A stretch of 64,000 bases of DNA from the NCBI GenBank assembly GCA_027484025.1, contig JAIXTI010000081.1, positions 124,001 to 188,000 on the forward strand. The letters are read 5' to 3'. How positions within the stretch are numbered: position 1 is the first letter of the stretch; each line of letters starts with the position of its first letter. The position numbers and the translations under genes were made by a program. The notes under the pieces were generated by a model. That model saw only the letters and a list, made by a program, of their open reading frames with translations. It had not been told where the DNA came from and did not search any database. Positions 43,874 to 57,120 of the stretch are shown piece by piece. This stretch comes from a bacterium. Lineage in GTDB: Bacteria > Gemmatimonadota > Gemmatimonadetes > Gemmatimonadales > Gemmatimonadaceae.

Positions 43874-44062
43874 GGTCCGGCGGTCTACTCGCGGCGGATC
43901 GAGCAATCAGGACAAAGAACGCAAGAGCACAGGGGGAAGCACGGGACTGTTCACGACCATCGCAACCGCAGTTGTCGTTGGCGTGGACGGCACCGCGCTT
44001 CGTCCTGTGCTCTTGCGTTCTTTCTCCTGAGGGCTCGATTCGCCGCCGGTGGACCGCCGGAC
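43874..44062. repeat. Long inverted-repeat element, copy 1 (~189 bp)
   Basis: Left GGTCCGGCGGTctactcgcggCGGATCGAGcaaTCAGGacAAAGAACGCAAGAGCACAGGgg; right cgTCCTGTGCTCTTGCGTTCTTTctCCTGAgggCTCGATTCGCCGCCggtgGACCGCCGGAC; about 60 bp arms. Same ends and order as the element at 54803-54990. Confidence 0.85.
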
Positions 44063-44093: not shown

Positions 44094-44456
44094 CTACTTC
44101 GCACTCGCAAACAGTTCCTTGGTCTCGCGATGCGTCAGCACCCAGATCGAGTAGCCACCGAACAGGGTGCCCCACGGCCAATTGAAGAGCCGGAACGCCG
44201 AGACCACGAGCACGACGTAGCGCGCCCAGTTCTGGTGGTTGAGGAGCGCGAGGCCGGCAATGAGACCGAAGATGCTGATGGCCCCGATGACGATGCCCAT
44301 GACCACGCCGACGACGCTGCCGACGACCATGGCGACCGGATTGAGCGTCGCGAGCGACCCGAAGACGGTGCCGAACAGCGCACCCAGGGCCGCAAGAATG
44401 CCAAGAGCGCTGTAGAGCAGATTGACGAGCGCGACGACTTTGATGTGGGTACGCAC
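44094..44456 (-). CDS. Small multi-TM membrane protein of unknown function
   Basis: GTG start VRTHIKVVALVNLLYSALGILAALGALFGTVFGSL...; four hydrophobic segments. Confidence 0.65.
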   Translation of the reverse strand: MRTHIKVVALVNLLYSALGILAALGALFGTVFGSLATLNPVAMVVGSVVGVVMGIVIGAISIFGLIAGLALLNHQNWARYVVLVVSAFRLFNWPWGTLFGGYSIWVLTHRETKELFASAK

Positions 44457-44556: not shown

Positions 44557-44625
44557 CCAAAGGGGTCAGAGTCAAAAAAGGGGTCAGAGTCAAAAAGGGG
44601 CTCAGCCCAAAAGGGGTCAGAGTCG
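44557..44625. repeat. Tandem REP-like repeats with AAAAGGGGTCAGAGTC core (4 units, one diverged)
   Basis: ccAAAGGGGTCAGAGTCAAAA AAGGGGTCAGAGTCAAAAA GGGGCTCAGCCCA AAAGGGGTCAGAGTC. Confidence 0.8.
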
Positions 44626-46683: not shown

Positions 46684-46742
46684 CCCCCAAAGGGGTCAGA
46701 CTCCTTTAGCCAACCCTAAAGGAGTCTGACCCCTTTTGGGGG
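46684..46742. repeat. Palindromic REP-like element (59 bp hairpin)
   Basis: CCCCCAAAGGGGTCAGACTCCTTTAG-ccaacc-CTAAAGGAGTCTGACCCCTTTTGGGGG; arms complementary over 26 bp with one indel. Confidence 0.88.
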
Positions 46743-54249: not shown

Positions 54250-54789
54250 ATGACGATTGCCCGTCCCGCCCTCGACGAACACGCGCCGTACGCGCTCACG
54301 TACATCAACGCCACCGCCGACGCGCTGGCTGCACTCGGCACCGACGATGTGCTGCAGCTGCTCGAGGTCCAGCGCGAGCAGTGGCGCGCCCTCTTGGCCG
54401 GCATCCCCGACTCGCAGGGTGCCTTTTCGTACGCCCCCGGAAAGTGGACGCTGGCCGAGTCGCTGGTCCACGTGAGCGACACCGAGCGGGTATTCGCCTA
54501 TCGCCTGCTGCGCATCGCCCGCGGCGACCGGACGCCGCTCCCCGGGTTCGAGCAGGACGATTGGGTGCCGCAGAGCCGGTCCACTCGGCGTACACTTCCA
54601 GACATTTTGACCGAAATGCTCGCCTGCCGCGAAGCGACGTTAGCCCTGGTGCGGTCGCTCGACGACGAAGCCATCGGCCAGCGCGGGATCGCCAGCGGCG
54701 TCGAGGTCTCAGCGCGGGCGCTGGTGTGGATGCTGGCGGGGCACATGGCGCATCACATAACGCTGACGCGCACCAAGTACTGCGGTTGA
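54250..54789 (+). CDS. DinB family protein
   Basis: GKWTLAESLVHVSDTERVFAYRLLRIARGD...; LAGHMAHHITLTRTKY. Confidence 0.9.
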   Translation: MTIARPALDEHAPYALTYINATADALAALGTDDVLQLLEVQREQWRALLAGIPDSQGAFSYAPGKWTLAESLVHVSDTERVFAYRLLRIARGDRTPLPGFEQDDWVPQSRSTRRTLPDILTEMLACREATLALVRSLDDEAIGQRGIASGVEVSARALVWMLAGHMAHHITLTRTKYCG

Positions 54790-54802
54790 CCTACGGGTGG
54801 CT

Positions 54803-54990
54803 GGTCCGGCGGTATACTGGCCGACGGATCGAGCCCTCAGGGTAAAGAACGCAAGGACAGAGGGGAAAGCGCGGTGCGGTTCAATGGGGAACCGCGGTTG
54901 GGGTCTGGGTCGAGCGAACCGCGCTTTCCCCTTTCCCCTTGCGTGCTTTACCCTGAGGGCTCGATTCGTCGGCTTGTGAACCGCCGGACC
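54803..54990. repeat. Long inverted-repeat element, copy 2 (~188 bp)
   Basis: Left GGTCCGGCGGTatactggCCGACGGATCGAGCCCTCAGGGTAAAGaACGCAAGgacaGAGGGGAAAGCGCGG; right CCGCGCTTTCCCCtttccCCTTGCGTgCTTTACCCTGAGGGCTCGATTCGTCGGcttgtgaACCGCCGGACC; about 75 bp arms. Confidence 0.88.
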
Positions 54991-55092
54991 AAACAACCGT
55001 TTTGAACCGCCGTTCAGCCCCGGATCCGGCTAGATTTAGAGGCTGTGGCGCGCCGATCGCGCCCGCCCTAGCCGACCCTCCCGGAGCGTTTC

Positions 55093-57120
55093 GTGTCCGC
55101 TGCGTCACCCCTCGCTGGTTCCGCGTCTCCCGAGACTGTGCGTCTCGCGATCGATACCGTTCGTACTCTCGCCATGGATGCGGTGCAGGCCGCCGAGTCG
55201 GGGCACCCCGGCACTCCCATGGCGCTCGCCCCGCTCGCGTACGCGCTCTATACCAAGCACCTGCGCCACGATCCTGCGGCGCCGGACTGGGCCGACCGTG
55301 ACCGCTTCGTGCTCTCGGTTGGACACGCGTCCATGCTGCTGTACGGCACGCTGCACCTGGCCGGCTACGACCTCCCGCTCGACGAAATCAAGAATTTCCG
55401 TCAGTGGGAGAGCCTCACGCCGGGTCACCCCGAAGTGCACCACACCAAGGGTGTCGAGACGACGACGGGTCCGCTGGGTCAGGGTGTGGCGAACGCCGTG
55501 GGCTTGGCGGTGGCCGAAGCACATCTGGCGGCGACGTTCAATCGCGAAGGGCACGCGATCGTCGATCACTACACGTACTTCGTCGCGGGCGACGACTGCC
55601 TCATGGAAGGCATCTCGCACGAAGCGGCGAGCTACGCCGGCCACATGAAGCTCGGCAAGCTCATCGGCTTCTTCGACGACAACGGCATCACCATCGACGG
55701 CAGCACCGCGCTCACCTGCAGCGACGACGCCGCCAAGCGCTTCGAAGCGTATGGCTGGCAGGTGCTGCACGTCGACGACGTGAACGATCTCGCGTCGATC
55801 GACGCGGCGATCGCGGCGGCCAAGGCCGACACGCAGCGCCCCACGCTGGTCATCACCAAGACGCACATCGGGTTTGGTTCGCCCAACCGCCAGGACACCG
55901 CGAAGGCGCACGGTGAACCGCTCGGCAAGGACGAAATCGCCCTCACCAAGCAGGGCTACGGCTGGCCGTCGAGCGAGCCGTTCTTCGTGCCCGACGCGGC
56001 GCTGACGCACTGGCGCGAGGCCACCGCGCAGCGCGCGCAGTCGCACGCGGAGTGGAACAGCAAGTGGCAGGCGTACTCGAACGCGCATCCCGAGCTGGCC
56101 GCCGAATTCGAGCGCCGCATGAAGGGTCAACTCTCGGCGTCGCTCGACGCGGCGTTCCCCACATTCGACGCCAAGAGCGGCAACGTCGCAAGTCGCGCTG
56201 CGAGTGGTGTCGTGATCAACGCCATCGCGAACACGGTGCCCGAACTGCTGGGCGGCAGCGCGGACCTCACGGGCAGCAACCTCACCAACGTGAAGGGCGC
56301 GAGCGGATTCGGCGCCGACAACCGCACCGGCCGCAACTTCCACTTCGGCATTCGTGAGCACGCCATGGGCGCGATCATGAATGGCATGGGACTGCACGGC
56401 GGCGTAATTCCGTACGGCGGCACGTTCCTCGTGTTCAGCGATTACATGCGCCCCGCGGTGCGTCTGGCGGCGCTCATGGGTGTGCAGGCCATTTACGTGT
56501 TCACGCACGACTCCATCGGCCTTGGCGAAGATGGTCCCACGCACCAGCCCGTCGAGCATCTGGCCGCGTTGCGCTGCATTCCCAACCTGCTGGTGCTGCG
56601 TCCCGCCGATGCCGACGAAGTGAGCGAAGCGTGGCGCGTGGCGCTGCATCATCGTGGTGGACCGTCGGCCATCGTGCTCACGCGTCAGAAGCTGTCGTAC
56701 TACAACGAGGCGGCACGTGCGCGCGAAGGCGTGAAGCACGGTGCGTACATCGTGGCTGATGCGGCCGGACATGTGCCCAACGTGGTGCTGTTGGCGAGTG
56801 GCTCCGAAGTGGAGATCGCGCTGGCCGCCCGTGAGCAGCTGTCGGGTGAAGGCATTCACGCGCGCGTGGTGAGCTGCCCGAGCCTCGAGCTGTTCGCGCA
56901 GCAGCCGGTCGAGTACCGCAATCATGTGCTCCCCGCCGGCGTCCCGCGCGTGGCCGTCGAAGCGGCGCACCCGATGTCGTGGTATCGCTGGGTCGGCGAC
57001 CACGGCGCCATCGTGGGCATCGAAACGTTCGGCGCGAGCGCGCCGGCGCCAGTGTTGTACGAGAAGTTCGGCATCACGGCGCAGAACGTGGCCAAGGCTG
57101 CCAAGTCGGTGCTGCGGTAA
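55093..57120 (+). CDS. tkt: Transketolase
   Basis: GTG start; [96 protein letters not shown]. Confidence 0.97.

Follow-up and report, generated by a model that had tools for sequence, protein, structure and literature searches.

In enterobacteria, the 127-bp ERIC element (RU-1) is intergenic, forms one long stem-loop and occurs in tens of copies (PMC2267715, PMC2759123), and ERIC copies can fuse to the 3' ends of genes, altering the stop codon (PMC2759123). Yersinia possesses YPAL (RU-2), a genus-restricted element of about 168 bp that is palindromic over its full length (PMC2267715, PMC2759123), and Neisseria carries the NEMIS/Correia elements, RNA-folding palindromic repeats of 106-158 bp (PMC2267715). 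REPs, with a length of 20-40 bp (PMC3733652), lie at the 3' ends of genes (PMC1590033) and are subject, as BIMEs, to mosaic exchange. Stable stem-loops at gene 3' ends, with a bias towards convergent genes, are ordinary in bacteria (PMC1590033; PMC13155455). We describe here a family of palindromic repeats from the genus Gemmatimonas, analysed from one of its copies.

The palindrome behind the DinB-like gene

The DNA analysed (the window) is a stretch of 64,000 nucleotides from a 4.74-Mb MAG of the genus Gemmatimonas (G000), covering positions 124001-188000 of its contig. It contains an almost complete palindrome of 188 bp at 54803-54990, starting with GGTCCGGCGGT at 54803 and ending with ACCGCCGGACC at 54990. 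Complementarity between its arms is 85% over 86 nt. Its predicted minimum free energy of -162.6 kcal/mol compares with -85.4 +/- 4.9 for shuffled sequences (z -15.9). The hairpin noticed in an earlier sequence-only reading is thus real, and so is its start 13 bp behind a stop codon: the TGA of the DinB-like gene is located at 54787-54789 and is followed by 13 nt and then by the hairpin core. The length of 188 bp given in that reading holds for the core palindrome, but in the family the palindrome extends by another 20 nt or so at either end.

The element is comprised of a left outer arm (54782-54802, gcggttgacctacgggtggct), into which the palindrome extends outwards and which contains the TGA of the DinB-like gene; a left 80-nt arm on the forward strand (54803-54882), with the conserved blocks GGTCCG, AGCCCTCAGG, AAGAACGCAAG and AAGCGCGG; a central region or loop (54883-54910), delimited by sequence and fold, with a small palindrome AACCGCGGTT at 54890-54899; a right 80-nt arm on the reverse strand (54911-54990), which is the inverted copy of the left arm; and a right outer arm (54991-55011, aaacaaccgttttgaaccgcc). 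Upstream lies a forward-strand gene of the DinB_2 superfamily (54250-54789; Pfam PF12867, 5e-23), whose stop codon falls within the outer arm of the element, and downstream a forward-strand transketolase gene (55138-57120; Pfam PF00456, 1e-147), for which an alternative upstream GTG at 55093 is possible.

A second member of the family, copy 1 (43874-44062), shares 76-79% with the copy at 54803-54990, in two blocks. The internal block thought to be the same in both copies is present in copy 1 as well, but with two bases changed (GAGCAATCAGG vs GAGCCCTCAGG). The post-stop position claimed for copy 1 holds with respect to one neighbour: it lies 31 nt past the stop of a small minus-strand gene (44094-44456), but the start of a GMC oxidoreductase gene also follows it at a distance of 55 nt.

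Family distribution, anatomy and placement

Where two copies had been recognized, the genome holds about 49. A BLAST search of G000 against itself found the element at 41 places on both strands, and the arm motif is present (forward/reverse) 49/49 times in G000, 48/45 times in UKL202c (G016) and 45/45 times in RE-15aug16-119 (G025), the other two carriers. It was found in none of 27 other genomes of the genus, and a reversed-pattern control gave zero counts in all genus genomes. A search over 179 genomes of the taxonomic family was positive only in the three carriers; a pattern scan of 84,980 GTDB species genomes returned only Gemmatimonas sp. UKL202c and Gemmatimonadaceae RE-15aug16-119, and no match was found among the viral contigs, PLSDB plasmids or phages searched. 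In a tree of transketolase DNA the three carriers group in a single clade (100/99), whose sister is G003 (97/96).

In each copy a single 80-nt arm unit occurs twice, in inverted orientation, and is bordered by outer arms of approximately 20 nt, the full element measuring some 230 bp. When 222 arms from 111 copies were aligned, left-left, right-right and left-right identities between copies were all close to 80%. Conservation reaches at least 95% in 40 of 79 arm columns (222 arms), which cluster in the four blocks named above (runs z -3.7), and 28 columns are variable, many of them near 50:50. The outer arms follow a consensus TGAACNACGGGTGGCT of about 20 nt, conserved over 201 flanks. The family has the terminal inverted repeats expected of a MITE; like large palindromic intergenic repeat families of the ERIC/YPAL kind, whose copies measure 100-250 bp, it consists of tens of dispersed non-coding copies that each form one stem-loop and favour intergenic space and the 3' ends of genes. 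At sites E059, E108 and E007 the ends of the element are duplicated in tandem (CCGGACCAACCAACCGTAGTT repeated); at one site this duplication is found in two carriers and is absent from the third.

Both neighbours were called (with a home-made gene finder) for 105 copies; the genes around a copy are tandem in 65 cases, convergent in 35 and divergent in 5, compared with 188 tandem, 63 convergent and 63 divergent pairs of neighbouring genes over 400 kb of UKL202c. This corresponds to a convergent excess (Fisher, p 0.008) and a divergent deficit (p 1e-4) over copies that, where orthologous, are not independent; for G000 alone the values are p 0.04 and p 0.08. The non-random placement suspected earlier is therefore borne out by the mapping of copies against stop codons: they sit just behind stops, with an excess between convergent genes and few between divergent ones. 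The post-stop position alone is unsurprising, since the 3'-end and convergent bias of bacterial stem-loops was already known. The flanked genes are ordinary chromosomal genes with no host feature in common.

The distances between stop and core have peaks at 13 and 21-24 nt; two ranges set post hoc, 12-14 and 21-25 nt, hold 67 of the 106 distances of at most 50 nt. In 15 of 17 cases the outer-arm motif supplies the TGA that acts as the stop at 13 nt. At the DinB/transketolase site this outer-arm TGA is used in G000 and UKL202c, and in RE-15aug16-119 24 nt separate the stop from the core, a placement also seen in G003. As the stops lie within the outer arm or right against it, the distance peak is largely the element's own boundary.

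Transcription, mobility and probable exchange between copies

The account that we consider the most probable, with some reserve, is that the family is a lineage-specific, non-coding palindromic repeat of gene ends, of the ERIC/YPAL/BIME kind, which spread in one burst, was fixed and has since exchanged sequence between its copies. It has to be weighed against the possibility, which we judge doubtful, that the element works as an RNA hairpin, either as a bidirectional transcription terminator or as a stabilizer of mRNA 3' ends. Such a role would agree with copies placed straight behind stops, with their convergent bias and very stable fold, with the unrelated gene-end hairpins found genus-wide (21/48 convergent in G003), with the terminator-like hairpins at some orthologous G003 sites, and with the stem-loops that bacterial gene 3' ends generally carry (PMC1590033, PMC13155455). 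The element is, however, found on only about 50 genes per genome, and an intrinsic terminator was rejected, its GC stem having no U-tract. The weakness of the coupling between the arms also argues against such a role. This coupling exists but is small, complementarity being 83.7% within copies vs 80.4% with arms shuffled among copies (z 9.4).

3'-UTR processing, RNA stabilization or attenuation had been proposed for the hairpin, and an RNA tuned by pairing fared poorly: variable columns are paired within a copy in 57.7% of cases vs 51.0% expected from unlinked arms, and among sense-orientation mismatches at tandem sites G-U (196) shows no excess over A-C (220). The covariation whose absence had been named as a refutation did not appear either, as close orthologues differ by 144 single changes that break a pair and by 6 double changes that keep one. 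A structured RNA under pairing selection was accordingly rejected, with no compensatory changes and no G-U bias of the sense strand. The TATACT motif, from which self-transcription had been considered conceivable, is real in the copy at 54803-54990, but it occurs in 1 of 115 copies and no promoter-like site was found, so that a self-promoter in the element was discarded. Pairing at variable positions barely better than random, the missing G-U excess and the rarity of TATACT together make it unlikely that the element is an RNA attenuator with finely tuned pairing or has a promoter of its own. Rfam returned no family at gathering threshold and only sub-threshold models of miRNA hairpins, matches that are expected for any long perfect hairpin.

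Between close orthologues, conserved columns change in 1.9% and the others in 8.4% of cases (p 2e-21), and flanks in approximately 6-7%. Conserved block sequence combined with weak pairing favours sequence recognition over tuning of pairing. Frequent gene conversion could mimic part of this contrast between conserved and dimorphic columns in the absence of a host function, since columns fixed in the family would stay fixed and dimorphic ones would keep switching.

The history of the family can be read from its sites. After two weak matches of 81-82%, displaced by about 1 kb, had been set aside, all 13 of the 13 reliably mapped sites of G000 or RE-15aug16-119 proved to be occupied in UKL202c too, and transposition is thus older than the three species, within the sites sampled. 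As the family is confined to the clade of the three carriers, a single gain is its simplest history. The G003 orthologue of the DinB/transketolase site has no hairpin, and the aligned genes there are just 135 bp apart; this absence could represent a loss instead of an ancestral emptiness. No clean target-site duplication was found in the compared sites, and no autonomous partner with the same ends was identified.

Identity between orthologous copies ranges from 77%, the value of random paralogues, to 99.5%, with flanks at 92-94%. The copy at 54803-54990 is 77% identical to both of its orthologues, which are 93% identical to each other, and is one of the replaced copies. The spread in identity is most simply explained, we infer, by ectopic gene conversion or by recombination recurring among copies. 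Exact donors of replaced copies were not found, the nearest non-orthologue of the window copy being 83.5% identical.

That the family is a purely selfish MITE, now fossil, whose 3' location reflects merely tolerated insertion sites, is conceivable but rather unlikely. Its lineage-restricted burst, its inverted repeats and the lack of a common host feature among flanked genes are what such an element would leave behind; even decay would be expected of it, however, and the conserved columns change more slowly than the flanking coding DNA while the rest change faster, and copy sets have been retained in three species.

Movement as a REPIN or BIME by a RAYT (Y1 tyrosine) transposase is largely refuted and very improbable. 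Each carrier does encode exactly one Y1 transposase gene, and G003, G001 and G005 encode none, but in all three carriers this gene lies between GGGGTCAGAGTC REPs, with no copy of the palindrome family beside it, and five other genomes of the genus possess the transposase without the family; RAYT mobilization was rejected on these two grounds. The window itself contains short REP-type repeats (GGGGTCAGAGTC / GGGGTCAGACTC) at 44562-44624 and 46692-46733, with a 26-nt inverted pair at 46684-46741; since the same GGGGTCAGAGTC motif flanks the Y1 gene of the carriers, these are the REPs of that transposase. Integron attC sites or gene cassette boundaries, which the several copies flanking a single gene and the close pairs in G000 (about 7 vs 1.3 expected at random) might recall, are an extremely improbable reading, as the flanked genes are ordinary and chromosomal, the copies are singly dispersed and the element exceeds the typical attC length. 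The close pairs flank one to three ordinary genes, also at orthologous loci; cassettes between paired copies were considered and rejected, the enclosed genes being ordinary.

Under the favoured account of a gene-end repeat spread in one burst, the element would have undergone a single amplification, in the ancestor shared by the three species, through a putative transposase acting in trans. Its copies would have been kept where they were least harmful, right behind stop codons, some of them supplying the stop, and, once spread, the immobile element would have exchanged sequence among its copies by ectopic gene conversion. Less certainly, the conserved blocks, which by symmetry are present on both strands, may mark gene ends in a strand-symmetric way or serve as a putative protein-binding site, and would then resemble a BIME-like boundary rather than a finely paired RNA switch.

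Gene-end hairpins in Gemmatimonas and known palindromic repeats

Long hairpins of many unrelated vocabularies were found in the genus, 48 in 1.4 Mb of G003 and 23 in 400 kb of UKL202c, and similar ones in G001, G002, G006, G009 and G013. Of the 48 in G003, 21 are located between convergent genes, an arrangement that accounts for 186 of 1124 gene pairs there (p 5e-6); another 3 lie between divergent genes. The hairpin families of UKL202c and G003 contain species-specific, word-like repeats (ACTGAGAACTGAAAACTC, GGCATCCAAGGCATCC, CTGCCGTCTG, CACAGAGGACACGG and GGATAGGCGTGAGAGTCGAG), to which a further family of 213 bp (AACTGCATGACGAGGACTG) can be added; these families, ACTGAGAACTGAAAACTC-AACTGCATGACGAGGACTG, lie mostly at the 3' ends of genes. 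The DinB/transketolase intergenic region of G014 and G005 contains hairpins of unrelated sequence (CGCAGGGGGAAGGC... in G014); the gene end is thus shared and the hairpin is not.

In the 1.4 Mb of G003 on which the site comparison rests, an unrelated long hairpin is present at 3 of 12 convergent ends orthologous to carrier sites vs 38 of 357 overall (p 0.12), which is no more than suggestive of unrelated hairpins reusing the same gene ends. At the E007 site of G003 one more hairpin, below the ungapped threshold, is visible by eye, and in place of the carriers' element some of the orthologous sites in G003 have hairpins that look like ordinary terminators. It is a speculative and, in our judgement, improbable generalization that long hairpins mark a subset of mostly convergent gene ends throughout Gemmatimonas, the vocabulary being replaced wholesale and the position reused. 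If true, the hairpins would form structural boundaries at gene ends whose sequence turns over very fast, and the palindrome family would be the form that these boundaries take in the three-species clade.

In Gemmatimonas genomes, long hairpins of species-specific sequence recur regularly at the ends of genes, and their role is therefore testable in cultured members of the genus. The family itself would offer a dated example, spanning three species, of a palindromic repeat that burst once, was fixed behind stops and then evolved by exchange between copies, with site sharing, sequence replacement and stop-codon capture all directly readable in the carriers.

Among known systems, the family resembles ERIC in its intergenic position, single long stem-loop and tens of copies; unlike ERIC, it is longer, is built of two interchangeable 80-nt arms and belongs to another phylum, and no sequence relation was found in the GTDB, plasmid and phage searches. 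It shares with YPAL its size, full-length palindrome and genus restriction, but is tied to stop codons and probably differs in sequence. As the arm motif is found only in two Gemmatimonadaceae among 84,980 GTDB species and has no plasmid or phage match, homology to ERIC or YPAL is unlikely. NEMIS/Correia elements are likewise palindromic repeats that fold as RNA, as is predicted for this family, but their sequence and terminal repeats differ. With BIMEs and REPs the family has gene 3' ends and mosaic exchange in common, whereas its element of about 230 bp is far longer than a REP and does not lie beside a RAYT gene. The family was thus previously unmatched, while the kind of repeat that it represents is already known.
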